Source: Muribaculaceae bacterium
Lineage (GTDB): Bacteria; Bacteroidota; Bacteroidia; Bacteroidales; Muribaculaceae
Length of the DNA: 64,000 nucleotides
Direction: 5' to 3'
Assembly (NCBI GenBank): GCA_017405965.1
Contig: JAFQZK010000037.1
Span: forward strand, 62,001-126,000
The translations under genes and the position numbers were made by a program. Below the pieces are notes generated by a model, which saw nothing but the letters and a program-made list of their open reading frames with translations, made no database searches and was not told the origin of the DNA. Below are positions 36,183 to 55,383 of the stretch, piece after piece. Each line of letters begins with the position of its first letter. Position 1 is the first letter of the stretch.

Positions 36183-36407
36183 TCAAAGCTTGGACTTCAC
36201 CATTTCCACGACACGCGAGAAGTCGGTCATCTCGGCAATCTCCTCGGGCTCCAAGTCGATGTCGAAACTGTCCTCAATCTCGGATGCCAGCGTGAGGTGA
36301 TGCAACGAGTCCCAGCGTTCACAATTCTTCTGTGAAGCCGTTGTCGAGACATCTTCCATTTCAAACACCTCGCGCATAATCTCTAAAATCCTATCTTCCA
36401 GGTTCAT
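36183..36407 (-). CDS. Acyl carrier protein (ACP1)
   Basis: A 74-residue acidic protein with the phosphopantetheine motif ERWDSLHHL (Ser 34) and the four-helix pattern of carrier proteins. Its start overlaps the stop of the FkbH-like gene by four bases (ATGA type), so the two are translationally coupled. FkbH proteins load a carrier protein, so ACP1 is the obvious partner. Confidence 0.92.
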   Translation of the reverse strand: MNLEDRILEIMREVFEMEDVSTTASQKNCERWDSLHHLTLASEIEDSFDIDLEPEEIAEMTDFSRVVEMVKSKL

Positions 36408-37996
36408 AAAACTCTAATATTGTAACAATTCTTGATTTCAAACACAGTATTGAGCATCATCTCATAATGCTTCGTCCCGTCGTCTTCCTTGCTCACACAA
36501 GTCATGCCCATGCGGTCATAGAAATCGGCCGTCTGGCCATTCTTAGCCGTGGGCAAGTAAGAAGCCGTCAACTTGCGGTAGCCGTCAAGCCTCATGAGAT
36601 TGAGCACCGTCTTGAAGAATGCCTCCTCGATGCCCTTGCCCAGAATGCGGCAACTGAGCAACATTGTGTCGATATTCAAGGTGATGTCGTCGACCGGCTC
36701 CAAGAATATCGTGCCCGTGATGCCGCTGTCGCCGAAACGGTCACTCACAGCCATGCAACAAATGTGCCAACCGCTGTCAATCAACCGGTTTACCTGGTCC
36801 TCGGCATAACGCCTCGTGGTGAGGTTGAACTGGTTGGTCTTCTGCGTCATCTGAGCGATGCGCGGCAGGTTATGCTCGTCGGCGGGAATGACATCGATAG
36901 AAATATCCAGGCTGTAAAGATAATCATCAAAATCGGTGAAGCGAGACTGCTCGGCCTGTCGCAGGGCATTGGCCTGATATTGCTTGTTCTTGGCCCGATC
37001 CTCGTCGGTCACCGCATAGATGCGGAAGTATTTCCCGACCAGGTCCTTGAAGAACGGCATGAGTTGGTAGGGTTTAGCGGGGAACTCGGGCACCTCGACC
37101 TGCGGCAACATCTGCCTGATGAGTTCCCGTTCGGCAGGATTGTCATCAAGAAAGACCATACTGTCCAAGCCGATGTTCAATTCCTGAGCCAGTTCACGCA
37201 TGTTGGTGGCCTTGTCTTGCCAGTTGATGCGCAAGGCGCTGAAGTGCTCCCGCTTTAGCACCATCGCCGGATTCTTTTCCCATGCCTCCTGCACGTCGGC
37301 CTCATTGTTCTTGCTGCACACCGCCAGTATCACGCCATCTGCAGCCAGTTGCTTCAATGCCCGCTGCCAATAGGAATAGGCCTTGCCGGGATAGTCGCCG
37401 CCCAGCTGGATGCCGTCAACGCCATCCTCGCCGAGCACCCCACCCCACAGCGTGTTATCGAGGTCCAGAACCAGGCACTTCATGCGTCGCAGGGCCATCT
37501 CCTCCTCGATGCGCTGCCACCATGACTTGAAATCACGCTTCAGTTTGGGATTGAGCAGCGACTGAGACATCATGTAATACTTCCAGTCCACCAGGGTCGC
37601 AGCATCGTAGTGGGATGTGAATTCACTGAAGTCCACCCACTTGACTCCGGGGCGCTGCTGCGACAAGCGCATCGCATGGCTGTTGAACGCCGCAATCGCC
37701 TCATCGACCGCTACTTCATCACCAGTGAGCCTCAAGGGAAACAGGTTAACCAGCGAAAAGATGATAAACGGCTTGGCTGTATCGATGCCCGAAAGCACCA
37801 AGTCCAACTGATCAATATAAGCCGTGATTTCCTGGGCCAACTGATTGGCATCGGCATTGACCGGTACCTGATAGAACCAGATGTAACGGTCAACGTCACC
37901 CGGGACCATACTGATGTCGCCATAGCCCGAATAGGCCACGCCGTCATCGCCCAAGAAGGCCTCTATCGTTTGATTACGGAAAACGTAAGTTGACAT
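36404..37996 (-). CDS. FkbH-like HAD/GNAT protein
   Basis: A 530-residue three-part protein: an SGNH-like N-terminal region (about 1-165), a HAD-IIIC domain with CLVLDLDNTLWGGVLGEDG (nucleophile Asp 178, then DNT), and a C-terminal GNAT domain (about 370-530; GDSGITGTIFLEP, SCRILGKGIEEAF). FkbH in polyketide pathways takes glyceryl from 1,3-bisphosphoglycerate and loads it on an ACP. The immediate ACP1 partner suggests a similar loading, with glyceryl-ACP or a derivative as product, but this is inference. Confidence 0.88.
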   Translation of the reverse strand: MSTYVFRNQTIEAFLGDDGVAYSGYGDISMVPGDVDRYIWFYQVPVNADANQLAQEITAYIDQLDLVLSGIDTAKPFIIFSLVNLFPLRLTGDEVAVDEAIAAFNSHAMRLSQQRPGVKWVDFSEFTSHYDAATLVDWKYYMMSQSLLNPKLKRDFKSWWQRIEEEMALRRMKCLVLDLDNTLWGGVLGEDGVDGIQLGGDYPGKAYSYWQRALKQLAADGVILAVCSKNNEADVQEAWEKNPAMVLKREHFSALRINWQDKATNMRELAQELNIGLDSMVFLDDNPAERELIRQMLPQVEVPEFPAKPYQLMPFFKDLVGKYFRIYAVTDEDRAKNKQYQANALRQAEQSRFTDFDDYLYSLDISIDVIPADEHNLPRIAQMTQKTNQFNLTTRRYAEDQVNRLIDSGWHICCMAVSDRFGDSGITGTIFLEPVDDITLNIDTMLLSCRILGKGIEEAFFKTVLNLMRLDGYRKLTASYLPTAKNGQTADFYDRMGMTCVSKEDDGTKHYEMMLNTVFEIKNCYNIRVL

Positions 37997-38005
37997 GCTC
38001 TTCTT

Positions 38006-39016
38006 TTATTTTCTGATCTTGCGATATATACCACTCATCAGTTTCCACAGGCGGGGACGCATCATCAGGAAGTGGATGAGTTTCCATTTTGCACCATGAT
38101 AACATGCCTCGGGACCGACGCAGGGAAACGGATACAATCCCGCTTGACGGATTCGCTCCAAGATATCGTCCACGCAGCCACAGGTCATGGCTTTGGTCAT
38201 GGCAAAATACAAGTAAACGTTTCTCAGGCCCGACACACTGGCGGGTGAAGTCTCACCCGTTGCCACCTCATAGCTGCGGATGGTCTCATTAATGGAGGCA
38301 GCCGAGTCCACTTGGCTCAAGATGCGCCGTTTCAAGTGCGTGATGTCGGTGTTGTGCATCGCGCTGTCGCCACGCTTGACATAGCAATAGACCGTTGCTT
38401 CATCATGTGCCACCCGGCTGGCATTGAGCAGCAAGCGGGCTATGAGCTCGCCATCCTCACACACGATGAGCGACTGGTCGAAACGCCACTGGTTTCCATT
38501 CAGATAGTCACGGTTGACCAGGAAGCGCCAGATGTAAGGAGTCATCACGTGTGACTTCAGGTATTCAACGCCCGTCAGGTTTCCTGTTGAAGGATAGTTG
38601 TCGCCCCGATGGGAAGCGAGCAGATTACCGTCACTGTCCAGATTCTTGTAGTTGAACACAAGCACATCCAGTTCATCGTCCACCACACGATTCAGCAGAC
38701 GTTTCATCATGCCCGATTCCAGATGGTCGTCACTGTCGACAAACTGCAGATACTTGCCACGAGCCTGGTCAATAGCCCGGTTGCGCGCAGCGCTCACGCC
38801 GGCATTGGCCTGAGTCAGCAGCCTGACCTGAGGATGCTCACCGATAAAGGCCTCGACAACAGCCTTACTGCCATCGGTAGAACCGTCATCGACCACCAGC
38901 ACCTCATACTGGTCATCTTCCAACCCCTGGTCAACAATAGACTGCAAACACCGCTGCACATAGGCCTCGGTGTTGTAAAGAGGGACAATATATGTCAACA
39001 GGGGGAATGTCATCAA
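38006..39016 (-). CDS. GT2-family glycosyltransferase
   Basis: A 336-residue GT-A enzyme: PLLTYIVPLYNTEAYVQRCLQSI, VDDGSTDGSKAV, QANAGVSAARNRAIDQARGKYLQFVDSDDHL with the DxD-type metal site near residue 100. The C-terminal half includes a conserved CYVKRGDSAMHN segment. Its start overlaps the VOC gene stop by four bases, so it is read with the acyl genes. Donor and acceptor unknown. Confidence 0.9.
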   Translation of the reverse strand: MMTFPLLTYIVPLYNTEAYVQRCLQSIVDQGLEDDQYEVLVVDDGSTDGSKAVVEAFIGEHPQVRLLTQANAGVSAARNRAIDQARGKYLQFVDSDDHLESGMMKRLLNRVVDDELDVLVFNYKNLDSDGNLLASHRGDNYPSTGNLTGVEYLKSHVMTPYIWRFLVNRDYLNGNQWRFDQSLIVCEDGELIARLLLNASRVAHDEATVYCYVKRGDSAMHNTDITHLKRRILSQVDSAASINETIRSYEVATGETSPASVSGLRNVYLYFAMTKAMTCGCVDDILERIRQAGLYPFPCVGPEACYHGAKWKLIHFLMMRPRLWKLMSGIYRKIRK

Positions 39017-39426
39017 GTCAGGTCTTGCTCGACCAATTCAACCAGGCCCACATCCTTCTTGAACAAGAAAGCGATGCGGCGATTCCCCATCGCACAAGCG
39101 GGTACCGGCCCTGTCACCAGCAGGAATCGCTGGCCACGCAGGGATTGAATAGCGTTCTCGATATCTTGCACCTGGTAACACAGGTGATAAGGCGTCACGC
39201 CCGAACTGGCAAGCGTGCGGGCCACAGGGCTCTGATCGTCGAGCGGTTCCAGCAATTCGAGACGGGGAGCGCCCTCCTTGTCCAGAAAACAAACGCGCAC
39301 GTGCTGTATTAAATCATCGACAACAGGCGCTGCGGCATAGCCCATCGCCGCATAGAACGGCAAGGTTTTTTCTATATTGTGGCAGGCGATGCCAACGTGG
39401 TGGAAAGTCAATTCGCTATTCATCAA
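39013..39426 (-). CDS. VOC-family protein, methylmalonyl-CoA-epimerase-like
   Basis: A 137-residue double-beta-alpha fold protein: FHHVGIACHNIEKTLPFY, PRLELLEPLDD, YHLCYQVQDIENAI, VGLVELVEQD. The likely metal ligands (His 10 region, Glu of ELLEP, His of YHLCY, Glu of VELVE) match the glyoxalase/methylmalonyl-CoA epimerase pattern. It overlaps its neighbours by four bases on each side, so it is locked into the KAS III and GT2 unit. It may epimerise an alpha-substituted acyl thioester, but a lyase role is also possible. Confidence 0.8.
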   Translation of the reverse strand: MMNSELTFHHVGIACHNIEKTLPFYAAMGYAAAPVVDDLIQHVRVCFLDKEGAPRLELLEPLDDQSPVARTLASSGVTPYHLCYQVQDIENAIQSLRGQRFLLVTGPVPACAMGNRRIAFLFKKDVGLVELVEQDLT

Positions 39427-40472
39427 TACTCGATAACGGGCGAAACCTTGCAGTCACGCATCTGCATGATCGTGGCACCCCAACTCAAACCGGCACCAAA
39501 TGCGCTCATCACCACCGTGTGGCTACCATCGAGCTGACCACTCAACTCGCTGGAGACGGTCAAGGGCACCGATGCGCTACTTGTATTGCCATACTTGCTG
39601 ATGCAGTAAGGAACACGGTCGGGCGAAATCTTCAGTTTCTTCACAAAGAAATCCATCATGAAGCGGTTGGCCTGATGAAATACCAGGTAATCCACATCGT
39701 CGATGGTCTTGTCGGTTTCCTTAAGCAGGAGTTTGATGCTCTTGGGCACCTTGCTGATGGCAAAGTTAAAGACGTCCATGCCATCCATGAACACCTCCAG
39801 GTCGTTGCGGATGTTACCTTCCTCCTGCTCACGTTCGACACACGAGTCGGGCGTGATGGGGTTTCGCATTCCTGCATGAATCTTGAGGGTGTTCTCGCCA
39901 CTGCCGTCGGTATAGAGCATGAAGGTTGAATCGCCATAGTCGCCCTTCTCGATCAGCGTGGCGGTTCCGGCGTCACCATAGAGGGGCCAATCCACCTTGT
40001 CGCGGCGATTCACTATCTTGGAAAACGTCTCACCGTCAAGCAGCAACACGCGGTTAATGCCCTGCATCGAAGCGTAGGCAAATGCAGTGCTCAGAGCGAA
40101 CAGATAGCCCGAGCAACCCAGCGAGATGTCAAAACACAAAGTCTCTCGCGGCAGTCCCAAACGCTGCTGCAGCAGACAAGATGTTGCAGGGATACGGTAG
40201 TCGGCCGTCTGGCTCATGAACAACAGGACATCGATGCTCTCGGGAGCGATCTGATTGTCTTCCATCAGCCGACGTGCAGCCTTGAAACACAAATCACTAG
40301 CAGTGACATCGGGGGCAGCGATTCGGCGCTGTTCAATACCGATGTTACTGATAGTCTTCTCGATCTCTTCCTCGGGAATCAGGTATCCTAAATCCTTGTT
40401 GTAAACAATTTCGGAGGGCACACAAGCACTCAGTGCCTTGATACCCACTCCATGAAATGTTATCTTAGCCAT
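39423..40472 (-). CDS. 3-oxoacyl-ACP synthase III family protein (KAS-A)
   Basis: A 349-residue thiolase-fold enzyme. The catalytic triad is intact: Cys 120 in LGCSGY, His in FHQANRFMMDFF (near 255) and Asn in YGNTSSASVPL (near 287). The N-terminal part GVGIKALSACVPSE and IGIEQRR is typical of FabH-like proteins of biosynthetic clusters. It should condense an acyl group with malonyl-ACP or transfer an acyl group. ACP2 lies just upstream on the same strand. Confidence 0.9.
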   Translation of the reverse strand: MAKITFHGVGIKALSACVPSEIVYNKDLGYLIPEEEIEKTISNIGIEQRRIAAPDVTASDLCFKAARRLMEDNQIAPESIDVLLFMSQTADYRIPATSCLLQQRLGLPRETLCFDISLGCSGYLFALSTAFAYASMQGINRVLLLDGETFSKIVNRRDKVDWPLYGDAGTATLIEKGDYGDSTFMLYTDGSGENTLKIHAGMRNPITPDSCVEREQEEGNIRNDLEVFMDGMDVFNFAISKVPKSIKLLLKETDKTIDDVDYLVFHQANRFMMDFFVKKLKISPDRVPYCISKYGNTSSASVPLTVSSELSGQLDGSHTVVMSAFGAGLSWGATIMQMRDCKVSPVIEY

Positions 40473-40596: not shown

Positions 40597-40833
40597 TTAC
40601 TCGACCCGGGATTTGACAATATCATACAAATCCTTAATTGTAGTGCTGTTGCGGATATCATCACCGCGGAATTCAACATTATACTCCTCGTCAATCATAG
40701 CGATGACCGACAAAGCGAACAACGAGGACCATTCCTCCAGTTCCTTGAACCGAGTTGTGGCGCATATAGTATCGGGGTCTGTTTCATCAAACAGATCCGT
40801 GAAGTTCTCTATGAATTGTTCAAGACTCATCAT
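40597..40833 (-). CDS. Acyl carrier protein (ACP2)
   Basis: A 78-residue acidic protein: EQFIENFTDLFDETDPDT, then EEWSSLFALSVIAMIDEEY. The phosphopantetheine Ser is Ser 37; the preceding residue is Ser instead of the usual Asp of the DSL motif. It is a close relative of ACP4. It has its own promoter box 43 bases upstream and is followed 124 bases later by KAS-A. Confidence 0.88.
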   Translation of the reverse strand: MMSLEQFIENFTDLFDETDPDTICATTRFKELEEWSSLFALSVIAMIDEEYNVEFRGDDIRNSTTIKDLYDIVKSRVE

Positions 40834-40875
40834 TTTACTAACGTAAAATCAGACGATATATTTTTTCACGAGGCG

Positions 40876-40983: not shown

Positions 40984-41631
40984 TTAGAAGTCAAATTTCT
41001 TGGCGGGAACTCCCAAGTAAGTGCAGTTATCACGCGGTGTGGTCATGAGCACACTGTTGGCTGCCAGCGTAACGCCATTGCCGATGGTCATCCCTTGAAG
41101 GACCACACTCGCTACTCCAAGCAGATTGCTGTTGCCAATGGTGATGCCACCTGAGAGATGGGCTCCAGGCATGAGGCCGTTAAAGTCTCCGATGGTGTTA
41201 TCATGGCCAATGACGACATGATCGTTGATCAGGTTGAAACTGCCGATGGTGACATCGCAAGAGATCATGCAATCATTCTGAATCACATTCCCCTCGCCCA
41301 TAGTAACCGTCTGCTTATCAACGTAAAACAGCGACGGGTCGATGAGGTTGGGAAATGAGATATGGTCGTTGGTGATGCTCTCGCGGATGCGGCGAACAGC
41401 CTTGTTGTCGTTGATGGCTATAGCGACTGCCAGCGGCTCATTTATTTGTAACAGGGCATCCATGCCGCCCAGCACGGTGCCGTAAGATGACACCGGGGTT
41501 CCGGCTTGCTTGGTGTCGTCGAAGAAGCCTATCAGATTCCAATCACCACCATTGGCATTGATTCTCTTGATCAGACAGGCCGTTTCCTTGCCGAATCCAC
41601 CAGCTCCATAAATTGCTATGTTCATACTCAT
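40984..41631 (-). CDS. PglD/NeuD-family sugar O/N-acyltransferase
   Basis: A 215-residue protein with an N-terminal Rossmann-like part (MNIAIYGAGGFGKE) and a C-terminal left-handed beta-helix of hexapeptide repeats. The catalytic His is in VVIGHDNTIGD near residue 145, as in PglD. The family acetylates 4-amino sugars such as UDP-diamino-trideoxyhexoses, or sialic acid. It follows a PglE-like aminotransferase, the same order as in bacillosamine synthesis. The C-terminal halves of this gene and the fusion at 48467-50224 are close paralogues, ending alike in PAKKFDF. Confidence 0.9.
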   Translation of the reverse strand: MSMNIAIYGAGGFGKETACLIKRINANGGDWNLIGFFDDTKQAGTPVSSYGTVLGGMDALLQINEPLAVAIAINDNKAVRRIRESITNDHISFPNLIDPSLFYVDKQTVTMGEGNVIQNDCMISCDVTIGSFNLINDHVVIGHDNTIGDFNGLMPGAHLSGGITIGNSNLLGVASVVLQGMTIGNGVTLAANSVLMTTPRDNCTYLGVPAKKFDF

Positions 41632-41658: not shown

Positions 41659-42801
41659 TCATTTCTTGCAGCAAGCCTTGATTTCTCGTGCCACGCGTTC
41701 CACATCCTCATCGCTCACCCAAGGGCCGCTGGGAAGACACAATCCTATTGAGAAGAGCTCCTCGCTCACGCCGTTGACAAATGCGGGCGCGCCGCTGAAC
41801 ACAGGCTGTGTGTGCATCGGTTTCCACAAGGGGCGAGACTCGATATTGCAACTTTCAAGATGCTGACGCACAGCCTCATAGTCGGTTCCCGTCTTGTTGG
41901 GGTCAATAAGAATCGTGTTGAGCCAGTAGTTGCTGTCGGAACGCTCATCGGCATTGGTGTGAACACTGATGCCGTCAACATCGGCAAAGAGTTCAACATA
42001 GCGGTCGCACAGGTGCTTGTGATGGGCCAAGTGCTCATCCAACACAAACATCTGGCCACGGCCAATGCCCGCACAAATGTTACTCATGCGGTAGTTATAG
42101 CCGATTTCCTTGTGCAGATAATAAGGCATGGGTTCACGGGACTGTGTCGCATAGAACATGGTCTTCTTCTTGGTAGCCTCATCGGGGCAAATCAAGGCAC
42201 CTCCACCACTGGTGGTGATCATCTTGTTGCCGTTGAAGCTCATGATGCCAAATTGGCCGAACGTGCCGCACAACTGTCCACGGTAACGTGATCCGAAAGC
42301 CTCGGCCGAATCCTCAATGACAGGGATCTCGTAGCGGCGGGCTACCTCCATAATGTCGTCAATCTTGGCTGGCATGCCATACAGATAGACCGGGATGATG
42401 GCCTTGGGCTTGCGACCTGTTTTGGCGATGCGGTCCTTGATGGCATCCTCGAGCAGATTGGGATCGATGTTCCATGTGTCGCGCTCGCTATCCACAAACA
42501 CGGGAGTAGCGCCCTGATAAACAACGGGATTGGCACTTGCCGAGAACGTCATGGACTGACAGATGACCTCGTCATCGCGTCCCACGCCCAAATTAACCAG
42601 TGCCAGATGAATCGCAGCTGTGCCCGAGCTGAGGGCCACCACGTGTTTTCCCTCGCCACACAACTGCTCCAAGTCTTGCTCAAACGCATTCACATTGGGA
42701 CCCAGGGGCACTACCCAATTGGTGTCGAATGCCTCTTGGATGTATTTCATTTCCTGACCGCTCATGTGAGCCAGGCAGAGTAAAATCTTGTTGTTTGCCA
42801 T
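41659..42801 (-). CDS. DegT/DnrJ-family PLP aminotransferase, PglE-like
   Basis: A 380-residue sugar aminotransferase. The opening LAHMSGQEMKYIQEAF, NWVVPLGPNVNAFEQ resembles PglE. Also seen: ALSSGTAAIHLAL, EDSAEAFGSRY, and the PLP-lysine segment MSFNGNKMITTSGGG near residue 180. It transfers an amino group to a 4-keto-6-deoxy nucleotide sugar. The 4,6-dehydratase needed to make that substrate is not in the window. Confidence 0.9.
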   Translation of the reverse strand: MANNKILLCLAHMSGQEMKYIQEAFDTNWVVPLGPNVNAFEQDLEQLCGEGKHVVALSSGTAAIHLALVNLGVGRDDEVICQSMTFSASANPVVYQGATPVFVDSERDTWNIDPNLLEDAIKDRIAKTGRKPKAIIPVYLYGMPAKIDDIMEVARRYEIPVIEDSAEAFGSRYRGQLCGTFGQFGIMSFNGNKMITTSGGGALICPDEATKKKTMFYATQSREPMPYYLHKEIGYNYRMSNICAGIGRGQMFVLDEHLAHHKHLCDRYVELFADVDGISVHTNADERSDSNYWLNTILIDPNKTGTDYEAVRQHLESCNIESRPLWKPMHTQPVFSGAPAFVNGVSEELFSIGLCLPSGPWVSDEDVERVAREIKACCKK

Positions 42802-42824: not shown

Positions 42825-43397
42825 TTACACTTCAGGTGCGTGACCGGCATATACAGTTCGATGTGCCGCCAGTTCACGGATAAGGACCTCACTCTTGGCG
42901 GCCAACGCCTTATCTGAAAGCGGGAGGTTGGTCACCGTTTTGACACCGGGGATGAAACTGTCACCCGTGAGAATGATATCGTCTATCATCCATGTCACGC
43001 AGGACGGATTGTGGCCCGGAGTGAAAACAGCCTCGGCCTTGATGCCGTCAAACAAATCCACACATTCACCGTTCTCGACCAGATGAACATTGGTGGTGTC
43101 AATGAGCACAAAGGGGTCGCCGTTGTATTTTGAAAGGTTCAGCTTGTCGTTCAACAACGCTTCCAGTCCCGGCTCATTGGTGAAAACCGGCAATGAGGGG
43201 ATCAATTCGGCCAACTGATTCAAGCCATAAATGTGATCGAAGTGGGCATGGGTGAGCAACACCCCTTTCAGCGGGCCAACGATTGCAGGAAGTATCTTGT
43301 CCACATCACCGCAGTCTACAAGCCATGAAGCGCCATCGTGGACGATGACATAGCTGCAAGACCTGAAAAGTGAATTGACTATCTGACGAACTTCCAC
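42825..43397 (-). CDS. MBL-fold metallo-hydrolase
   Basis: A 190-residue metallo-beta-lactamase-fold enzyme: THAHFDHIYGL (the HxHxDH zinc motif near residue 50), FTPGHNPSCVTW with the next His, GDSFIPG with Asp, and a final YAGHAPEV His. These are the standard zinc ligands of glyoxalase-II-like hydrolases. Within this cluster a thioesterase-type editing or release function on an acyl thioester is plausible, but not proven. Confidence 0.88.
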   Translation of the reverse strand: MEVRQIVNSLFRSCSYVIVHDGASWLVDCGDVDKILPAIVGPLKGVLLTHAHFDHIYGLNQLAELIPSLPVFTNEPGLEALLNDKLNLSKYNGDPFVLIDTTNVHLVENGECVDLFDGIKAEAVFTPGHNPSCVTWMIDDIILTGDSFIPGVKTVTNLPLSDKALAAKSEVLIRELAAHRTVYAGHAPEV

Positions 43398-47356: not shown

Positions 47357-47590
47357 TCAAGATTTACGCTTCTCTACAATCGAGAACAAGTCCTGGATCG
47401 TGTCGGATGAGATGATATCATTACCCTTGATAATGACATCATACTCATCGTCAACCATGGCGATGATTGACAGGGCCATCAGCGATGACCACTCTTCCAG
47501 GTCCTTGAATTTGGTCTCGGCAGAGAACTCTTCGGGATCAGTTTCGTCGAACTGTCCTGCAAAATTTTCTATAAATTCCTGTAAGTTCAT
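47357..47590 (-). CDS. Acyl carrier protein (ACP4)
   Basis: A 77-residue protein very like ACP2: LQEFIENFAGQFDETDPEEF and EEWSSLMALSIIAMVDDEY, with Ser 36 as the site and Ser in place of Asp before it. It is the first gene after the promoter at 47646-47676. Having two carriers side by side ahead of the ligase is unusual. Confidence 0.88.
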   Translation of the reverse strand: MNLQEFIENFAGQFDETDPEEFSAETKFKDLEEWSSLMALSIIAMVDDEYDVIIKGNDIISSDTIQDLFSIVEKRKS

Positions 47591-47699: not shown

Positions 47700-48470
47700 C
47701 TAAATCGAAAAACCTCCATCTATCACCAAGTCGTGACCCGTCAACCAACTTGAGGCATCGCTCAACAGATAGATGGCGCCATTGGCAATATCATCAGGGT
47801 TGCCATAGCGACCAAGGGGATAACGCTTAGCGTCCTCGGCCAATTGCTCCTCGGTGATGGTTCCACGGTGGATGAGCGGCGTGTCAACCATACCGGGACA
47901 GATGCTGTTGACGCGCACACGACGAGTGGCGAACTCACGAGCGGCATACCTCATTACCGAGTTGAGAGCGGCTTTTGAGGCTCCATACACACCATTGCCT
48001 GGCATGAAACTGTGGGTACCGCCTATAGAGGCAATCAGCACAACCGATGAATTCTTCTGCAACAGTTTCTTCTTGTACATCAACCGCATCAATTCAACCG
48101 GGGCAAAGAAATTGACGTCGAACATCTCGTCAAACTTCTCGCGTGAGCCGAACTGCAGCGGCAAAGTCGTTGAATTGCCAGCACACAGCACTGCGCCGTT
48201 CAACGGCGGCAAAGCTGCCACCATACGCTCAACCTCCTCTTGCACGGTCAAGTCGGCCAATAATGTCACATGACCATCGGGGTGCTCGTTCAACTGGTTT
48301 AAGGTCTCCTGAAGGCGCTCCTGATTACGAGCCGCCAACACGAGGCGCGCTCCCATTCGTGAGCACAGAATCGCAGTGCACTGTCCTATGCCAGAAGAGG
48401 CACCAGTGACCAATATGGTCTTACCCGCGAGCGAGAAAGGATTATAGTCTGTATTCATCATAAAAATCAT
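47700..48470 (-). CDS. SDR-family reductase, FabG-like
   Basis: A 256-residue short-chain dehydrogenase: NADP site GASSGIGQCTAI, LCAGNSTTL, catalytic Ser and YxxxK in SIGGTHSFMPGNGVYGASK, and a final DLVIDGGFSI. The start overlaps the stop of the fusion gene (ATGA). In this setting reduction of a 3-oxoacyl-ACP to a 3-hydroxyacyl-ACP is the likely task, though reduction of a keto-sugar cannot be excluded. Confidence 0.88.
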   Translation of the reverse strand: MIFMMNTDYNPFSLAGKTILVTGASSGIGQCTAILCSRMGARLVLAARNQERLQETLNQLNEHPDGHVTLLADLTVQEEVERMVAALPPLNGAVLCAGNSTTLPLQFGSREKFDEMFDVNFFAPVELMRLMYKKKLLQKNSSVVLIASIGGTHSFMPGNGVYGASKAALNSVMRYAAREFATRRVRVNSICPGMVDTPLIHRGTITEEQLAEDAKRYPLGRYGNPDDIANGAIYLLSDASSWLTGHDLVIDGGFSI

Positions 48471-50224
48471 TTAAAGTCAAACTTCTTGGCAGGAATACCG
48501 ATGTAGGTATTACCATCTTTGGGCTTTGTCATCAGCACACTGCCGGCGCCGAGTGTGATATGGTTGCCAATCTTAACCTTCTGCAGCACAACACTGTTCA
48601 CACCCAACAGATTACAATCGCCGATATGCACGTTGCCAGACAGATGCACACTGGGCATCAGAACATTGAAGTTGCCGATAACGTCGTCATGACCAAGGAC
48701 GTTCAAGCCATTGAATACATTGAAATCACCGACTGAGACATCACAAGTCACGCTGCAACTGTCTTGAATGATATTACCGCGACCAATCTTGAATGTCTTG
48801 CTATCCAACACCTTGAATGACGGAGCGATGAGATTAGGATAGGAGATATTCGGATTGTCGATGCTCTCAAATATTGACTTTCGGATATTGGGATCGCCTA
48901 CCGCGATAGCAAGGGCCAAGGGTTCTTCAAGAGCATTCAGGGCATCCCGTCCACCCAGAATGCATCCATAGTGAGAGATCTGCGTCCCGACAGGGATGTT
49001 ATCATCAAAGAATCCGATGAATTCCCACTTCTCATCGCTATCCATATTAATGCGAGCGATGCCGCCGGCCACTTCACGTCCAAGGCCACCAGCGCCATAG
49101 ATTGCAATCTTTTTAGTCTTCGGATTGCTGCCCTCATCACAGATCGTAAGTTCGTCAATACCGCGACGATATACAGGGAAGAACGATGAGTTATGATTAA
49201 ACTCGGGATCCTTTTCCTTTCTCCAGTCCACCAACTGGTTATACATTCCCAGATTGAAAACTTCCCTACCAATAGCGAACTGGTAATCGCTGTTCCGGTT
49301 AAATGCCGCCTTGAACTTGTAGAGGTTGTCCTCGCCTGATCCGACGCCGCCGCCAAGATGGAACAACTTGAGTCCTTGCCGGCAACCCCACAATGCTGCT
49401 TCATACAGCAGCAAGTTTGTGGGTGCGTATTTACGATAATCTGCAACGGTGCCTGACAGATGATAATGCATCATGTCATTGCAATACAGAATAATTGAGA
49501 TAGCTATGATTTTGCCATCCATCATGGCGTAGAACACCTCGGTATTATCGCTTAGACTGTCGATTATTGACCGATAGAATGAGTCCTTGAAGAAGTAATA
49601 ATCTACTGCATGATCGATCCTCATCGTTTCATCATAGATCTCCTTGAAGATTGTCATCAACTCAGGAGTAGGCTTACTGTGCTCAATGACCACACCATTC
49701 TTGCGAGCCTTGCGAATCATATTGCGATTCTTGCTCTTGATGTTCTCCCAGATAATCTTTTCACTGCTGAGGTCGATGGCAATCGTCTTGCCCAAGTCCT
49801 GAACCTGGCTCACAAGACTCATTGAAACGGCATTCTTGAGTATAGGGCTGTACCTCACAAAATTGCTAACGCAATTGTGCTCAAGCATAAAAGTCTTATA
49901 CTCCTCATTAAAGACCTGCAAATTGTGCAGGTTCACTTCGCCTTCAAAGAGCCATCCTCCATAGCCATACGGTGAAGTTAAGTCAAACCATTTGTCGGCT
50001 CTAATCTTCCCTTCGGTCCAAGGCAACAGAGACAAATCTCGTTTCATGGCCACATACATGCCACGCATCTTATCCGATTCATAATAAATGAGTATCGGTT
50101 CGCCATCGCCATGAAGCATAAAAGCCTCAACATATCCATGTGAATAATACACATCGTGGTTGGCAAATGCATGGACAACATCATTCCATTCAGCCTTGTT
50201 CTTGAATGTAATTATCTTTATCAT
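48467..50224 (-). CDS. FemAB-like GNAT fused to a PglD/NeuD-family acyltransferase
   Basis: A 585-residue protein from the ATG at 50224. Residues 1-355 are FemAB/GNAT-like: WFDLTSPYGYGGWLFEG, SKNRNMIRKARKNG, GKIIAISIILY, HYHLSGTVADYRKYAPTNLLLYEA, LFHLGGGVGSGEDNLYKFK. Residues from about 372 to the end are a complete NeuD/PglD unit (KKIAIYGAGGLGREV, catalytic NVLGHDDVIGN, final PAKKFDF). The two parts join without frameshift. FemAB proteins transfer aminoacyl groups; PglD-type units acylate amino sugars. One polypeptide could do both steps on one sugar. Confidence 0.88.
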   Translation of the reverse strand: MIKIITFKNKAEWNDVVHAFANHDVYYSHGYVEAFMLHGDGEPILIYYESDKMRGMYVAMKRDLSLLPWTEGKIRADKWFDLTSPYGYGGWLFEGEVNLHNLQVFNEEYKTFMLEHNCVSNFVRYSPILKNAVSMSLVSQVQDLGKTIAIDLSSEKIIWENIKSKNRNMIRKARKNGVVIEHSKPTPELMTIFKEIYDETMRIDHAVDYYFFKDSFYRSIIDSLSDNTEVFYAMMDGKIIAISIILYCNDMMHYHLSGTVADYRKYAPTNLLLYEAALWGCRQGLKLFHLGGGVGSGEDNLYKFKAAFNRNSDYQFAIGREVFNLGMYNQLVDWRKEKDPEFNHNSSFFPVYRRGIDELTICDEGSNPKTKKIAIYGAGGLGREVAGGIARINMDSDEKWEFIGFFDDNIPVGTQISHYGCILGGRDALNALEEPLALAIAVGDPNIRKSIFESIDNPNISYPNLIAPSFKVLDSKTFKIGRGNIIQDSCSVTCDVSVGDFNVFNGLNVLGHDDVIGNFNVLMPSVHLSGNVHIGDCNLLGVNSVVLQKVKIGNHITLGAGSVLMTKPKDGNTYIGIPAKKFDFK

Positions 50225-50234
50225 AGCTAAAATC

Positions 50235-51254
50235 TCAACTATCAGCAATGATATCACGCAATTGCATCATATCGTTGCTGTTGTATCTTCCGTCACAGTG
50301 TACCGACAATATCCTTTTCGAGAAATCATTGACCTCCTGACTTGCATTCTCAGGGACATTCCACAATATCGCCGGATAGACACAGCTATTAATCAAATAC
50401 TTACGGAAATCGTTCCTCGCGCCCTCAGAATCAAAGAGCAATGTCAGGGAAAACGGATTGCAATCCGGGCCTTCGGGCTCAAGAACAATCGAGATTTTAG
50501 AAAAAGATTCCACGAGAACTTCTCGATTATCCTTTTTCCTCCCATACCATTGCTCAACATCAAATCGGCTCAAGTAGTCCAAGGTCTCTTTATCTATCGA
50601 AGAAACGCTCATTACATCGAACTGCTCTTCGGTTGAAAGAAAAACTGACCAGAATTCACTCTTGTCTTCTATCTCATCATTCAGATAAAGTGTCTTCTTC
50701 CTCATGGCTTCCCACCTTGACGAGGCAAGATCGGTGTTTTCAGACACTATCTGCGGAGATTCCTGCAACCTCAGGCCTTTGGGAGACCACAACATCCCTC
50801 CCTCGGCCAGTGGCAACGTTTTTCTCAATGATGCGATGCACCAATCGGCATCGCTATTAATGGCCCAGTCACCGATCAAATCATGCGTATGATCTTCAAC
50901 TACTGGTACCGGGATTCCATGATTACTCCTTCTTGACCTTAGGCCGAAATAATTCATCCTTAACAGCGCGTCACCCTCTTCAAACGGCAACGAACGCACT
51001 ATCTCGCTCTCGTTGGCCAAAGGGTAATCCCGATAAGATTGCCAGTTAACGCCGTTCTGTTCCAAAGAAGACAAAACATCATAGCAGAAATACTCGGGAA
51101 CCCACAAGCGCTTCCAATTATTCTTTTTATACAGGTCAATTATCGGGTGCCGCCCACAAGCATAGTAAAGCGCATCAGGGAAAAAGTCCTTGATAGTCCT
51201 ACCTCGACTCTCTCGAATCGGCAAATAATGGAAATCGGAACCGAATTCTTTCAT
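50235..51254 (-). CDS. PLP-dependent-aminotransferase-like protein of the DegT type
   Basis: A 339-residue protein (GTG 51257 or ATG 51254). It has a weak aminotransferase pattern: KRLWVPEYFCYDVLSSLE, VVEDHTHDL, and ASLRKTLPLAEGGMLW, where Lys near residue 155 sits where the PLP lysine of DegT enzymes lies. Overall similarity to true DegT enzymes is low, so it may be a diverged member with another role. It lies 10 bases before the fusion gene, so the two belong together. Confidence 0.6.
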   Translation of the reverse strand: MKEFGSDFHYLPIRESRGRTIKDFFPDALYYACGRHPIIDLYKKNNWKRLWVPEYFCYDVLSSLEQNGVNWQSYRDYPLANESEIVRSLPFEEGDALLRMNYFGLRSRRSNHGIPVPVVEDHTHDLIGDWAINSDADWCIASLRKTLPLAEGGMLWSPKGLRLQESPQIVSENTDLASSRWEAMRKKTLYLNDEIEDKSEFWSVFLSTEEQFDVMSVSSIDKETLDYLSRFDVEQWYGRKKDNREVLVESFSKISIVLEPEGPDCNPFSLTLLFDSEGARNDFRKYLINSCVYPAILWNVPENASQEVNDFSKRILSVHCDGRYNSNDMMQLRDIIADS

Positions 51255-51378
51255 CACTTCACCGATAAACCCAATTACAAGGAAACATTCTTAATTATAG
51301 AGGTCTACAAATTAATTGATCATTATTCTCCCAAAACAGTCTTTTCAAATAAAGCAATATTTGGGAGCAGCTATTCAA

Positions 51379-51900
51379 TTATTTAAGAAACTCTTTACTA
51401 AGAATAGACATCACAACAACATCCTTGAATGTGCCATTCTTGAACACAGCCTGACGGAGCACACCTTCTTGTTTATAACCGCATTTCTCGTGCATTCGTA
51501 GAGAAGCCTCATTATCAATATTGATATGTGCATAAATACGATTAAGGCCACGCTCCTCAAAACCGTAGTGAAGCATCTGAAGCAATGCTTCACAGGCATA
51601 GCCTTGCCCCCAATAATCCTTATTACCTATCAGGATATGAGATTCTGCAGTCCTATTGACATTATTAATATCCGTCAGATAAACATTGCCAATGTGGAGG
51701 TTATTCTGTATGAGGCAAATGGCCAATTTGATGTCAGAAGAATGGAAGATAGTATCTTCTATCCATTTCTTTTCGCGAGCTTCTGACACATACAATCTCA
51801 TCCCCCCCAATTTATCTGATACCTCCTTATCATTGCGCCATGCAATGGTTGTCTTGTAATCGTCAAGCTCAAAGGCCCTGAGATAGATTCTTGTCTGCAT
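51379..51900 (-). CDS. GNAT-family N-acetyltransferase
   Basis: A 173-residue RimJ/RimL-type GNAT beginning MQTRIYLRAFELDDYKTT; the frame is open upstream but overlaps the sugar transferase gene, so 51900 is preferred. The CoA-loop is in GNKDYWGQGYACEALLQM, then IYAHINIDNEASLRMHEKCGY. In this locus acetylation of an amino sugar is a reasonable guess. The 121-base interval 51258-51378 holds no gene. Confidence 0.85.
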   Translation of the reverse strand: MQTRIYLRAFELDDYKTTIAWRNDKEVSDKLGGMRLYVSEAREKKWIEDTIFHSSDIKLAICLIQNNLHIGNVYLTDINNVNRTAESHILIGNKDYWGQGYACEALLQMLHYGFEERGLNRIYAHINIDNEASLRMHEKCGYKQEGVLRQAVFKNGTFKDVVVMSILSKEFLK

Positions 51901-51910
51901 AGTGTTAATA

Positions 51911-52567
51911 CTATTTGTGTCTATAATACTGTTCAAAAAGATTTTCTGCCTCTCTTTTGCGAGCGTTCCATCCGAGATCATCGACCTCGTCTTGCAGCCC
52001 ATTACCAATGTCCTTAGATGATAGCACGTTCTTGATGGTCATGTAGAATATTTTCAAGTCTAAGGTAAATGACAGATGGTCAACATACCACACATCATAT
52101 TTAAACTTATTTCCGTAAGTCAAAGTATTGCGGCCATTTACCTGGGCCCATCCAGTAATGCCAGGTCTTACTTCATGACGTCGGGCCTGTTCATCATTAT
52201 AAAGCGGCAAAAACCATGTGAGTAAGGGACGCGGACCTATCAAAGCCATATCACCTTTGAGAACATTGAATAATTGGGGAAACTCATCAATTGAAGCAGC
52301 ACGGACCAAACGACCGACCTTAGTCAAACGTTCATTGTTCGGCAGCAATTCACCATTGGCATCACGTTCATCGGTCATCGTCTTGAACTTGATAATCTTG
52401 AAGATTTTGCCGTGAAGTCCGGGGCGTTCCTGGAAGAAAAACGCGCCGCCTCCTTTGTTGGCAAAATGCAGCCATATAGTCACCACCAGCAGAATCGGGC
52501 TCACACAAATCAACCCAATCAATGCCAATGTAAAATCTATTATCCTCTTAAAAAAATGCTTGTACAT
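51911..52567 (-). CDS. PglC-like initiating sugar-phosphate transferase 1
   Basis: A 218-residue monotopic bacterial sugar transferase: a single N-terminal membrane segment, then FFQERPG, FKIIKFKTMTDERDANGE, SIDEFPQLFNVLKGDMALIGPRPL, and PGITGWAQVNGRN. It has the PglC size, with no WcaJ-type N-terminal membrane domain. It transfers a sugar-1-phosphate to undecaprenyl phosphate to start the repeat unit. A second, similar copy follows upstream at 52589-53203. Confidence 0.92.
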   Translation of the reverse strand: MYKHFFKRIIDFTLALIGLICVSPILLVVTIWLHFANKGGGAFFFQERPGLHGKIFKIIKFKTMTDERDANGELLPNNERLTKVGRLVRAASIDEFPQLFNVLKGDMALIGPRPLLTWFLPLYNDEQARRHEVRPGITGWAQVNGRNTLTYGNKFKYDVWYVDHLSFTLDLKIFYMTIKNVLSSKDIGNGLQDEVDDLGWNARKREAENLFEQYYRHK

Positions 52568-52588
52568 TATTTGTCAGGATTATGATTA

Positions 52589-53203
52589 TCAGTTTCCCTT
52601 GAACTCTTCCATCGTGGCATTGCCTTCCTGAGAAATACCATCATGGATGAGCACCTTGCGTATTGTGATGAACAAAATCTTCAGATCTGTCATCAACGTG
52701 CAGTGGTCAACATACCAGACATCAAGTTTGAACTTCTCGGCCCATGAAATCGCATTTCGACCATTGCACTGGGCCCAACCAGTAATTCCCGGCCGCACTT
52801 CATGACGTCGGGCCTGCTCAGGAGAATAACGCGACAGATACTGAACCAGCAGAGGGCGCGGGCCTATCAGGGCCATATCACCAACGAGAACATTGAACAA
52901 TTGAGGCAATTCATCGATGCTTGTAGAACGAACGAAACGACCCACTCGTGTAAGGCGCACCTCATCTGGCAAGAGTTTTCCGTCTTCATCACGTTCATCG
53001 GTCATTGTCTTGAACTTGATGATCTTAAAGATTTTAGCATTCTTCCCTGGGCGTTCCTGAACAAAAAACGCTCCAGCACCCTTGTTAGCGAAATGCAGCC
53101 AGATAGTGACCACCAGCAGCAAGGGAGATAAGCAGATGAGTGCAGTCAGGGCAATCAAGAAGCCCAACATGCGCTTAATATAATCACGGTACAGATTCTT
53201 CAT
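52589..53203 (-). CDS. PglC-like initiating sugar-phosphate transferase 2
   Basis: A 204-residue paralogue of the previous gene with the same blocks (FVQERPG, FKTMTDERDEDGK, SIDELPQLFNVLVGDMALIGPRPL, PGITGWAQCNGRN). Large stretches of DNA are nearly identical between the two, for example around 52170 and 52800. Two initiating transferases side by side suggest two starter sugars or a recent duplication. Confidence 0.92.
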   Translation of the reverse strand: MKNLYRDYIKRMLGFLIALTALICLSPLLLVVTIWLHFANKGAGAFFVQERPGKNAKIFKIIKFKTMTDERDEDGKLLPDEVRLTRVGRFVRSTSIDELPQLFNVLVGDMALIGPRPLLVQYLSRYSPEQARRHEVRPGITGWAQCNGRNAISWAEKFKLDVWYVDHCTLMTDLKILFITIRKVLIHDGISQEGNATMEEFKGN

Positions 53204-53246
53204 TATTCTAATACTAACAATCTCTCACCACAGCGTTCAGCTGTTA

Positions 53247-54125
53247 TTAGATAACGATTCGCGGCGCCGCAGTCCAATCAATTTGGCTGATGGCTTGAGG
53301 TATCGAGATGAAACGCTGACTGCGAATGAGTTGATTCATCCTGTCAAGTGCTGTCTTCTTACCAAGATTTGATTTCAGGTGACGCTTATACCTGTTCAAC
53401 AAGGTGCCTGATTCCTTGAAATAATCCTCATATTCGGCCCTTGTCATCATCTTCTCGCTGGACGGTATCAGGTCTTCGATGTGGAAGTAGCAGATGTTGT
53501 AATCACGCTTCTTCATCTGACCGGTCACGAACCACAAGGGGAAGAAACGAAAATAGCCTCCACCTGAAAATGCGATATCCTTACCCAAAATGTGAGCCGT
53601 AGCAATCGGGAACTCCTTGATATCCCCTGCCCCAGTTGAGATCAGCGTGGGTACCTGATTCCCGAAATCAGGAAAGCCTCCAAAATCACGCGTTGCAGGG
53701 AAAACTGAGGCGTCACATTCTATGCCACATTGAGCCAAAACCTCAAATGCCCATTGATTGCTTTTGCCAATGGAAAATGCAGGGGCGCGGTAACTCTTCA
53801 CCTTCTTGCCGATGCATTGCTCCAAGGAATCAACCGCCTGCCTCGTGTCCTGATAGACCTCTTCACGAGTCATCTTGTTGAGCCATGTGTGAGTGTTGGA
53901 ATGGCAACCGATATCGTGTCCTCTCCCCTGGATGCGTTTCACCACTTGGGGAAAGCATTCTGCCATCTTGCCGACGACAAAAAAGGTTGCTTGAGTTTTT
54001 TGTTCATCCAGCAAATCGAGAATCCCCTCAAGGTATTTGTCAAAGGCGTCATATTGCTCTTGACGGCCACCATTAAAGGCCCTCTCGATATACCATTCCT
54101 CTATGTCAAACGACAAAATATTCAT
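53247..54125 (-). CDS. Polysaccharide deacetylase (NodB/XrtA-associated type)
   Basis: A 292-residue NodB-fold enzyme: FDIEEWY near residue 5, TFFVVGKMAECFP, GHDIGCHSNTHTW with the two metal His residues near 75, SYRAPAFSIGK near 115, and a C-terminal part (GGGYFRFFP) like the deacetylases of PEP-CTERM/exosortase polysaccharide loci. It removes N-acetyl groups from glycan. The FemAB-like protein is another feature those loci share. Confidence 0.88.
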   Translation of the reverse strand: MNILSFDIEEWYIERAFNGGRQEQYDAFDKYLEGILDLLDEQKTQATFFVVGKMAECFPQVVKRIQGRGHDIGCHSNTHTWLNKMTREEVYQDTRQAVDSLEQCIGKKVKSYRAPAFSIGKSNQWAFEVLAQCGIECDASVFPATRDFGGFPDFGNQVPTLISTGAGDIKEFPIATAHILGKDIAFSGGGYFRFFPLWFVTGQMKKRDYNICYFHIEDLIPSSEKMMTRAEYEDYFKESGTLLNRYKRHLKSNLGKKTALDRMNQLIRSQRFISIPQAISQIDWTAAPRIVI

Positions 54126-54145
54126 GAATCAATTCATTAGCCGTT

Positions 54146-55144
54146 TTACATCTTGAGAATCACAGCACCCCACGAATAGCCTACTCCGAATCCGCACAAG
54201 AGCACATTGCCTTTCAGGCGGTTCTCTTTATGAGCTTCTACAAGGCACAAGGGTATACTGTTGGAAACCGTATTGCCCACATTCTCCATGAAGATATAGA
54301 ACTTGTCTTCGGGAATATCCATTTTGTTTCTCAAGAAATCAAGCATGTATCGGTTTGCCTGATGCAAAACGAACATATCTATATCTTCTTTGGCAAGATT
54401 ATTTTTCTCAAGAACTTCGTTGATGACTTTGGGAACGTTGCGCTGGGTGAACGCGAAAATCTGGGCTCCGTTCATGAACAGATGATCGGATGAGACCGGA
54501 TTCCCGTTCTTGTCAAAGAGCAAATCATTCTGTTTCTCGGGCAAACGGGAAGCGCCCGACTTGACAATCAGGTTGTTGGCACCCTTGCCGTTGGTTCCTA
54601 AAGCAAAATCCAACACTTCGGCCTCACCATCAACCGACACGAGGGTTGCAGATGCGGCATCACCAAAGATGGTGCGGTTCCCTTTGTCTTTAGGATGAAG
54701 ATACTTGTTATAGGTCTCAGCCGTCAACAAGAGGACATTCTCTGCAATACCGCCAGCTATAAGTCCCTTGGCGATTGACAAACCGTAAACATAGCCTGAG
54801 CATCCCAGATTAAAATCAAATGCACCGATATCTTGCCGCAACCCCAAGCGGGTCTGCAACAGGCATGCCGATGTGGGCAAAAAGTAATCGGGGCTCTGCG
54901 TGCAAAGGATAACGAAATCGATGATCTCCTTATCGATGTTGTTTTCCTCGATCAGCTTAATCGCAGCTTTCTCAGCAAGGTCGGTTGCTGTTTCGTCCTC
55001 AGCGGCGACATGGCGTTGATTGACTCCGACTTTCTCGGTGATTTTCTCTACCGACCACTCGGGGAAGTCATTCACTATCGCCTCGTTTGTGACGACTTTA
55101 TCGGGCAAACAATATGCCACATATTTGATAAACGCCTTCTTCAT
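54146..55144 (-). CDS. 3-oxoacyl-ACP synthase III family protein (KAS-C)
   Basis: A 332-residue thiolase-fold enzyme with Cys 115 in LGCSGY, His in VLHQANRYMLDFL (near 245), and Asn in VGNTVSNSIPL (near 277), so the triad is complete. It is shorter and differs more from KAS-A and KAS-B than they do from each other. ACP5 lies 6 bases upstream, so KAS-C and ACP5 are one unit. Confidence 0.9.
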   Translation of the reverse strand: MKKAFIKYVAYCLPDKVVTNEAIVNDFPEWSVEKITEKVGVNQRHVAAEDETATDLAEKAAIKLIEENNIDKEIIDFVILCTQSPDYFLPTSACLLQTRLGLRQDIGAFDFNLGCSGYVYGLSIAKGLIAGGIAENVLLLTAETYNKYLHPKDKGNRTIFGDAASATLVSVDGEAEVLDFALGTNGKGANNLIVKSGASRLPEKQNDLLFDKNGNPVSSDHLFMNGAQIFAFTQRNVPKVINEVLEKNNLAKEDIDMFVLHQANRYMLDFLRNKMDIPEDKFYIFMENVGNTVSNSIPLCLVEAHKENRLKGNVLLCGFGVGYSWGAVILKM

Positions 55145-55149
55145 GAACC

Positions 55150-55383
55150 TTACTCGGTCAGAGATTTAACATAGTTGAACAGGTCTTCGACAGTACGGGT
55201 CTCATTCATCTCATCGACATCAACCACGGCATCATATTCCTGGTCGATCATAGAAATCAACGAGAGGACCATGACTGAATCCCATTCTTCCAGTTCCGAA
55301 TACACAGTGTCTGCATGAATGCTATCGGCACTGGTCTCCTCAAAGATACTCGCAAAATTGTTTATAAAATCTTTTAATTCCAT
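55150..55383 (-). CDS. Acyl carrier protein (ACP5)
   Basis: A 77-residue acidic protein: MELKDFINNFASIFEET and EEWDSVMVLSLISMIDQEY, with the phosphopantetheine Ser in WDSV. An ATG three codons upstream (55392) is also possible. It is in the same carrier family as ACP2 and ACP4 but keeps the Asp before the Ser. Confidence 0.9.
   Translation of the reverse strand: MELKDFINNFASIFEETSADSIHADTVYSELEEWDSVMVLSLISMIDQEYDAVVDVDEMNETRTVEDLFNYVKSLTE

Follow-up and report, generated by a model that had tools for sequence, protein, structure and literature searches.

In the O-polysaccharide of Flavobacterium psychrophilum, a 3,5-dihydroxyhexanoyl group, known from nuclear magnetic resonance, is carried by Qui2NAc4N, and the account in PMC6519341 predicts for it ketoacyl-ACP synthases (KAS; wfpC and wfpE), a reductase (wfpF), an acyl carrier protein (ACP; wfpD) and a PglD homologue (wfpG) that would transfer the acyl group from wfpD to UDP-Qui2NAc4NH2. 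In Pseudomonas syringae pv. tabaci, vioR and vioB mutants are reported to lack N-(3-hydroxybutyryl)viosamine by mass spectrometry (PMC3927599). Tetronate pathways (e.g., Mad7/Mad8/Mad16) are described as using an FkbH-like protein and a stand-alone ACP to form glyceryl-ACP, which is then used by a FabH-like enzyme (PMC7489565). Here we describe a polysaccharide locus of a Muribaculaceae bacterium (GCA_017405965.1), a gut organism whose habitat is probably the rumen, in which FkbH, KAS III, ACP, and PglD genes stand together. It lies in a stretch of 64,000 nucleotides (hereafter the window; positions 62001-126000 of contig JAFQZK010000037.1) of a 3.6-Mb draft genome. We propose, at about an even chance, that the locus has at its core a type II acyl line primed by glycerate, which would decorate an early sugar, probably the first one, in a surface polysaccharide. 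The broader claim, that non-acetyl acyl groups are built here on carrier proteins for use by PglD, appears probable from the genes.

The acyl and polysaccharide genes occupy positions 36183-55392, all on the minus strand, and the last ACP ends at 55392 instead of 55383. Read from 55392 to 36183, the block holds 23 genes, and 18 of the 22 intergenic gaps are shorter than 60 bp or overlapping. A first-pass annotation made from the sequence alone had counted five ACPs, three KAS III, a ligase, an SDR, an MBL protein, a VOC protein, an FkbH, and two PglD domains, all of which were recovered by open reading frames and family scans. Its statement that the Cys-His-Asn triads are intact in all three KAS III proteins (39423, 44573, 54146) also held in the alignment. 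Genes beyond its list are an ATP-grasp (43455), a LegC/PglE-family aminotransferase (41659), a weakly DegT-like gene (50235), and a second PglC. The genes of the proposed core are the following:

36183..36407, minus strand: ACPf, the carrier paired with FkbH (4-bp overlap with FkbH; NCBIfam ACP matches under cut-off)
36404..37996, minus strand: FkbH-type HAD/GNAT protein, predicted to load glyceryl on ACP from 1,3-bisphosphoglycerate (TIGR01686)
39013..39426, minus strand: VOC protein of the glyoxalase/methylmalonyl-CoA epimerase type (putative metal ligands conserved)
39423..40472, minus strand: KAS III "KS1", of the FkbH-linked clade (intact triad, tree)
40597..40833, minus strand: ACP2 (identity to ACP4)
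40984..41631, minus strand: PglD1, PglD/VioB-family N-acyltransferase (Pfam PglD_N, PDB matches)
41659..42801, minus strand: LegC/PglE-family aminotransferase, predicted 4-amino sugar maker (family scan, PDB matches)
47700..48470, minus strand: SDR, FabG-like reductase (SDR/KR families)
48467..50257, minus strand: FemAB/GNAT domain fused to PglD2 (family scans)
51911..52567, minus strand: PglC-type initiating sugar-phosphate transferase (family scan)

FkbH scored 297.1 bits against TIGR01686 (cut-off 146.65), and the SDR was over the cut-offs of SDR/KR families and under those of the FabG equivalog models. Three of the five ACPs match Pfam PP-binding; those at 36183 and 40597 had no Pfam match at E 0.001, retain the attachment-site serine (by eye), and in the case of ACP2 (40597) share 60% identity with ACP4 (47357).

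In the proposed pathway, FkbH (36404) would first move a glyceryl group from 1,3-bisphosphoglycerate to ACPf. KS1 (39423) would then condense the glyceryl from ACPf with malonyl on ACP2 to give a 4,5-dihydroxy-3-oxopentanoyl thioester, whose hydroxy-keto centre the VOC protein might epimerise or isomerise. VOC enzymes of this type shift a proton adjacent to a carbonyl by way of a metal-bound enediolate, which would suit the hydroxy-ketone from KS1. In the third step the SDR (47700) would reduce the ketone; in the fourth, PglD would acylate the 4-amino group placed by the aminotransferase (41659) on a UDP sugar from a PglF-like dehydratase encoded elsewhere; and in the fifth, PglC would pass the sugar phosphate to a lipid carrier. 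A single round by KAS III would most simply lead to a 3,4,5-trihydroxypentanoyl amide. We infer each of these reactions, the C5 product, and the order of the steps from sequence. That the FkbH line is glyceryl-primed and malonyl-extended is a proposition for which we see the balance as level, while the exact C5 trihydroxy amide is a doubtful prediction.

Relatives were retrieved by searching GTDB contigs with a KS1 alignment, and the best 80 of 463 were used. Grouped from gene maps, these comprise 37 loci resembling the window (L114-L147, L153, L171, and L176) and 43 others. Of the 80, 78 have a detected FkbH, and its strand is the same in 78/78. No more than 1.6 kb separate FkbH from a KAS III in 75/80 loci, with the VOC gene between them in 71/80, and an ACP stands within 150 bp of FkbH in 75/80.

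The 43 loci unlike the window, some of them from its genus, have a compact arrangement, in its fullest form PglC-PglD-ACP-(KAS)-SDR-KAS-VOC-FkbH-ACP. Most come from Bacteroidota; a few are contigs of metagenome-assembled genomes named Treponema, Sedimentibacter, and Opitutales/Opitutia, for which mis-binning is possible. On a 5.3-kb contig of Prevotella sp. MA2016 (L163), probably a cultured isolate, the genes read ACP-SDR-KAS-VOC-FkbH-ACP. Twenty-three compact loci contain FkbH and have sufficient flanking sequence (hereafter full context); all of these have two ACPs, 12 have one KAS III and 11 have two, 15 have one PglD and one has two, and nine have PglC. The minimal set, in Bergeyella cardium, reads PglC-PglD-ACP-KAS-VOC-FkbH-ACP-SDR-DegT, with one gene of each kind and two ACPs. 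A FabD-type malonyltransferase adjoins an ACP in two FkbH operons, L184 (6964-7899; 280.4 bits against a cut-off of 260.9) and L086 of the window's genus (7623-8558; 272.9 bits; order PglC-PglD-FabD-ACP-SDR-KAS-FkbH-ACP), which hints at a malonyl extender; elsewhere a housekeeping malonyltransferase would have to serve. What the sequences show directly is the genes themselves, catalytic residues that are kept, KS1 linked to FkbH, VOC, and ACPf, and a minimal operon. The earlier idea of a dedicated acyl line on carriers ending at PglD gains support from gene order and families: in many relatives PglD adjoins ACP, KAS III, and SDR genes, often with PglC.

A quick tree (no bootstrap) of 93 non-redundant KAS III proteins placed KS1 in a clade of 48 rows, with SH-aLRT support of 98, in which FkbH lies within 4 kb in 46 cases. 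The neighbouring clade of eight rows has FkbH in none, and seven of its eight members sit with ACP, SDR, and PglD. KS2 and KS3 each belong to a further clade, and the second KAS III of FkbH operons groups with KS2. Over 43 loci, pairwise distances of KS1, FkbH, and VOC correlated at 0.67-0.82 and those of FkbH and ACPf at 0.73, and the correlations of KS1, FkbH, and VOC with SDR or PglD were 0.33-0.56. From these distances, the starter module looks like an inherited unit whose reducing and transferring partners have been exchanged more often. The counts of ACPs and KAS III in the first-pass annotation stood; what it missed was the most specific feature, namely the link of KS1 with FkbH and ACPf and the separateness of the five-gene block described below.

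A different division of labour would have the locus make two separate acyl groups: a glyceroyl transferred directly by FkbH and ACPf to nitrogen (or oxygen), and an acetyl-primed 3-hydroxybutyryl made by KS1, the SDR, and ACP2. The viosamine island offers a precedent for the second, as it combines KAS III, reductase, ACP, and VioB with N-(3-hydroxybutyryl)viosamine (PMC3927599), and the window has two PglD domains, 55% identical to each other, that could serve two groups. However, in 15/23 compact operons just one PglD accompanies FkbH, KAS III, SDR, and the two ACPs, and the tracking of one KAS III clade by FkbH (46/48) is unneeded for direct glyceryl transfer. We regard two separate groups as possible and rather improbable.

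Residues were tallied in 88 KAS III proteins of the four clades, leaving out four more tree rows. The Cys-His-Asn triad is kept in 88/88, which makes decarboxylative condensation possible. The tryptophan that in E. coli FabH (Trp32) we take to stack on the adenine of coenzyme A (CoA) is absent in all 88 (one gap); the FabH that the genome itself encodes (L194) has it. At the other two presumed CoA-site positions (numbered, like Trp32, after E. coli FabH), KS1 differs from its FkbH-free neighbours: that of Arg36 is uncharged in 47/47 filled KS1 rows and Lys in 8/8 neighbours, and that of Arg151 is Lys in 43/48 KS1 rows and Arg in 8/8 neighbours. The residues at this presumed site fit a starter that would not arrive on CoA. 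Other residues that we presume to be catalytic or metal-binding are likewise kept: the HAD Asp178 in 78/78 aligned FkbH sequences; two His and a Glu in 72/72 VOC proteins, with Gln41 in 70/72; and the PglD His in 110/110.

Two random draws of genomes placed these genes in a wider context. In the phylum draw of 395 genomes, FkbH was found in 33 (28 over cut-off) and a KS1-like gene in 24 at E 1e-80. Stretches examined from 20 of the 23 KS1-like genomes other than the window's contained no FkbH; ACP was present in 19 of these stretches, SDR in 18, and a clear PglD in 15 (in another, L270, the PglD match reached 22 bits only). In the draw of 297 genomes from the family, 41 had FkbH, 38 of them over cut-off. 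The wealth of ACP, SDR, and PglD in FkbH-free stretches suggests a broad class of ACP/KAS III/SDR/PglD systems, with FkbH as the mark of one branch. The earlier statement that the acyltransferases of ordinary capsule loci are all acetyl-CoA-dependent finds no support in these FkbH-free relatives, nor in wfpC-wfpG (PMC6519341) and the viosamine genes (PMC3927599). The FkbH-free relatives could also mean that the locus is itself an ordinary system of the F. psychrophilum or viosamine type, making an acetyl- or malonyl-derived hydroxyacyl group, with FkbH acting in an unrelated phosphatase or acyl step. Against this stand the FkbH-ACP pairing in 75/80 loci, the separate KS1 clade, and the altered residues at the presumed CoA site, and we consider it unlikely.

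On the sugar side, both PglD domains are over the cut-off of Pfam PglD_N, and the nearest PDB matches of PglD1 are a pilin glycosylation protein, perosamine transferases, VioB, and PglD entries. The best two PDB matches of the aminotransferase (41659) are 1o61 and 4ztc, the latter of which we take to be C. jejuni PglE. A PglF-like dehydratase of 666 aa is encoded on another contig of the same genome (C17), with WlaL entries, presumably PglF, as best matches. The product of such a PglF/PglE-like pair would presumably be UDP-4-amino-4,6-dideoxy-GlcNAc, which is accordingly named here as the likely acceptor. In some of the compact loci PglC adjoins PglD, an arrangement which suggests that the acylated sugar would be the first one on the lipid carrier.

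Several observations weigh against the glycerate-primed line. Some concern the starter module: the 80 loci were selected by their likeness to KS1; operon neighbours co-evolve anyway, and the KS1-ACPf distance correlation is 0.46; the Trp loss is common to all KAS III clades, FkbH-linked or not; and two rows of the KS1 clade (L162 and L182) are without a detected FkbH. FkbH and a KS1-like gene occurred together in only 3/395 genomes of the phylum draw, namely the window's genome, G419 (on different contigs), and G317 (where the FkbH match is far under cut-off and about 190 kb from the KS1-like gene), which indicates that the linked form seldom occurs beyond its own clade. In 7/78 loci with FkbH, the VOC gene is not between FkbH and KAS III, and the VOC step would thus be optional. 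Others concern the later steps. FabD was found in only two (L184 and L086) of 141 stretches searched by tblastn with the L184 FabD, and L184 lacks PglD, having a GNAT protein instead. PglD was not detected in 7/23 full-context compact loci; in these and in L184, either another transferase acts or PglD is not the partner. Both PglDs of the window are just under the TIGR03570 cut-off (157.1 and 153.8 against 160.8), and their sequences do not point to ACP in preference to CoA as donor. In the window, a distance of 7-10 kb separates FkbH and KS1 from the SDR, and with two PglDs and five ACPs the pairing is ambiguous.

The 37 loci resembling the window share its core gene order (three without the five-gene block described here, two cut by contig ends), a recurrence that shows the gene grouping not to be a matter of chance. 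The KS1 of L114, from an uncultured Prevotellaceae, is 99% identical to that of the window; the others are labelled Prevotellaceae, Muribaculaceae, Bacteroidales, or Porphyromonadaceae, and their source, where given, is ruminants or ruminant stomachs. Between the MBL and SDR genes of the window stands a block of five genes:

43455..44573, minus strand: sugar-transfer associated ATP-grasp, one end of the block (family scan)
44573..45634, minus strand: KAS III "KS2", ligase-linked (intact triad, tree)
45646..47133, minus strand: AMP-forming acyl-activating ligase, AMP-binding (family scan)
47102..47332, minus strand: ACP3, adjoining the ligase (Pfam PP-binding)
47357..47590, minus strand: ACP4, other end of the block (Pfam PP-binding)

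This block (43455-47590) is present in 32/37 window-like loci, absent in three (L128, L133, and L153, where MBL and SDR are 18-21 bp apart), and undecidable in the two whose contigs end inside the locus. The five genes are present or absent together and so behave as one unit; the loci without them still have FkbH, one KAS III, two ACPs, SDR, and PglD. Two further loci of the same family, L106 and L107, have KS2-ligase-ACP3-SDR without FkbH, and their genomes (G261 and G209) are outside the 41 FkbH-carrying genomes of the family draw. From this distribution, the block is probably a second line, in which the ligase would load a free acid on ACP3 as starter. KS2 is 86-99% identical over 13 genomes, and the adjoining ATP-grasp and ligase are 64-75% identical outside the near-identical G232.

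Stretches from 19 other genomes of the genus were also compared. Sixteen share the order EEP-(acyltransferase)-ACPf-FkbH-GT-VOC-KS1-ACP2-(PglD1)-aminotransferase-(MBL), continuing with [ATP-grasp-KS2-ligase-ACP3-ACP4]-SDR-PglD2 and then a variable glycosyltransferase region; the genes in round brackets are each absent in one or two of the 16 genomes. A Wzy-like gene is present in 13 of 14 far-side stretches, and PdxA stands on the far side in 5/14 and in the window's own genome. The other three genomes (G222, G135, and G109) have the compact form, with the DUF/EEP and PdxA markers not in the stretch. A mobile cassette was considered and set aside, as the same DUF/EEP genes adjoin the locus in 16/19 genomes. 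The FemAB-PglD2 fusion (596 aa, in frame) is matched over its whole length by G232 at 94%, and other relatives of the genus have a 54-58% PglD match at the PglD2 position.

The pair at the far end of the block, which few relatives have, is a third unit:

54146..55144, minus strand: KAS III "KS3", separate clade, FkbH absent within 4 kb (intact triad, tree)
55150..55392, minus strand: ACP5, paired with KS3 (Pfam PP-binding)

One could suppose the carriers and KAS III proteins to be relics beside PglD1 and PglD2 that use acetyl-CoA, and among the nearest PglD relatives of solved structure several bear the name acetyltransferase. The triad kept in 88/88 KAS III, the higher conservation of KS2 than of the adjoining ATP-grasp and ligase, and the behaviour of the block as a clean present/absent unit make this very improbable.

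The remaining genes of the block are listed below.

38006..39016, minus strand: GT2 glycosyltransferase, within the block (family scan)
42825..43397, minus strand: MBL-fold hydrolase, possible thioester editing (family scan)
50235..51257, minus strand: weakly DegT-like protein, possible second aminotransferase (without family match)
51379..52008, minus strand: GNAT acetyltransferase, start codon probably later (family scans)
52589..53203, minus strand: second PglC-type transferase (family scan)
53247..54125, minus strand: polysaccharide deacetylase (family scan)

The GNAT frame (51379-52008) overlaps the PglC frame by 98 bp, and its true start is therefore probably downstream. The protein at 50235-51257 has no Pfam, NCBIfam, or PDB match and is weakly DegT-like (27% identity in a gappy alignment); a 24%-identical counterpart adjoins WbqC and GNAT genes in L184. 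The nearest structure to the VOC protein (39013-39426) is glyoxalase I, and the MBL protein (42825-43397) has a weak, sub-cut-off match to glyoxalase II. It is conceivable that the two, near ACP genes, form a glyoxalase-like pair working on carrier thioesters. Further along the window, three similar GT2-like genes stand in a row (60794, 61928, and 63035), adjoining similar glycosyltransferases at 58529 and 59635 (by eye), and this variable part of the locus (58529-63967) looks like the outcome of tandem duplication. Past the window's end, the next 10-11 kb encode, by sequence, a Wzy-like gene and more transferases.

The block was also compared with other locus types. An exosortase (XrtA) locus was rejected: the draft genome has no PF09721 match, and the XrtA-type ligase, FemAB, and deacetylase models (TIGR03098, TIGR03019, and TIGR03006) scored under cut-off. 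The dehydrogenases and methyltransferase of a methoxymalonyl-ACP operon are not next to FkbH, and the KAS I/II and dehydratase of an aryl-polyene/flexirubin cluster are not among the block's genes (by eye). The block was not classed with the tetronate operons either: FkbH, a stand-alone ACP, and a FabH-like gene are present and may act like the front end of such an operon, and the partner polyketide synthase (PKS) was not found in the block. General family scans of the block's genes, made without an own-sequence search, found no acyltransferase and no dehydratase of the Agg4/Agg5 type known from these operons. The same gene kinds could nevertheless belong to a cluster for a secreted small molecule (a tetronate- or tetramate-like polyketide) inserted in the capsule locus, as FkbH, ACP, and FabH-like genes act in tetronate formation according to PMC7489565. 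Family scans of the block's genes found no PKS, however, and many relatives carry these genes with PglD, PglC, or DegT, so that we give this explanation hardly any weight.

Taken as a whole, and with some reserve, we propose a widespread and apparently undescribed form of surface-glycan acylation fed by glycolysis. FkbH would form glyceryl-ACP, a dedicated KAS III would extend it with malonyl, and a PglD-type enzyme would attach the polyhydroxylated C5 acyl group, or a form of it rearranged by VOC, to the initiating amino sugar on the lipid. With its second, ligase-primed line and its third KAS III/ACP pair, the locus in the window could make up to three different acyl groups; we lean slightly against this full version. 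If true, chemistry of the tetronate antibiotics would be wired into the capsule or O-antigen sugars of gut Bacteroidota, perhaps also of other phyla. It would predict a definite, unusual acyl group and explain the recurrent KAS III/ACP/FkbH genes of uncharacterised polysaccharide loci. The genes would then predict the acyl chemistry, with FkbH marking a glycerate-primed group, a ligase a free-acid-primed group, and neither an acetyl-primed group.

Among known systems, the C. jejuni Pgl bacillosamine pathway resembles the window in its PglE-, PglD-, and PglC-like proteins in the locus and a PglF-like protein elsewhere in the genome. C. jejuni PglD uses acetyl-CoA, and the window differs by the carriers beside PglD. 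An N-glyceroyl nonulosonate is said to occur in Tannerella forsythia, which our literature search did not confirm. The F. psychrophilum cluster wfpC-wfpG shares ACP, KAS, reductase, and PglD homologue with the window, but has one ACP instead of five, and FkbH, VOC, ligase, and ATP-grasp are not named in the accessible part of PMC6519341. The viosamine island (vioS, vioB, vioR, and acp) shares KAS III, reductase, ACP, and VioB of the PglD family, and differs by a dTDP sugar on flagellin, a proposed acetoacetyl route, and seven genes among which the available account gives no FkbH, VOC, or ligase (PMC3927599). The earlier remark that this gene set was not recognisable as a described system is thus not supported as to its general kind, since both systems are of the same kind (PMC6519341, PMC3927599, as far as their available accounts go). 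In the Aeromonas group II flagellin islands, the likeness lies in an ACP, a 3-oxoacyl-ACP reductase, and an AMP-dependent synthetase within a glycan locus; luxC/luxE are present there, and in the available portion of PMC7874193 KAS III is not named and FkbH is not mentioned in the main text. A tetronate operon releases its polyketide chain as a ring (PMC7489565, in the part available), where the window instead has reductase, PglD, and PglC. No description of an FkbH-fed acyl line for O-antigen or capsule was found in the literature searched by titles and abstract starts, with partial coverage of subscription papers. The locus has the gene make-up of an ACP/KAS III/reductase/PglD (VioB) cassette, with a locus ACP, an intact KAS III, a predicted 3-oxoacyl reductase, and PglD with a predicted 4-amino sugar supply. 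The general kind is thus already known; what is new is the starter module of FkbH, ACP, VOC, and KAS III, together with the ligase-linked block.

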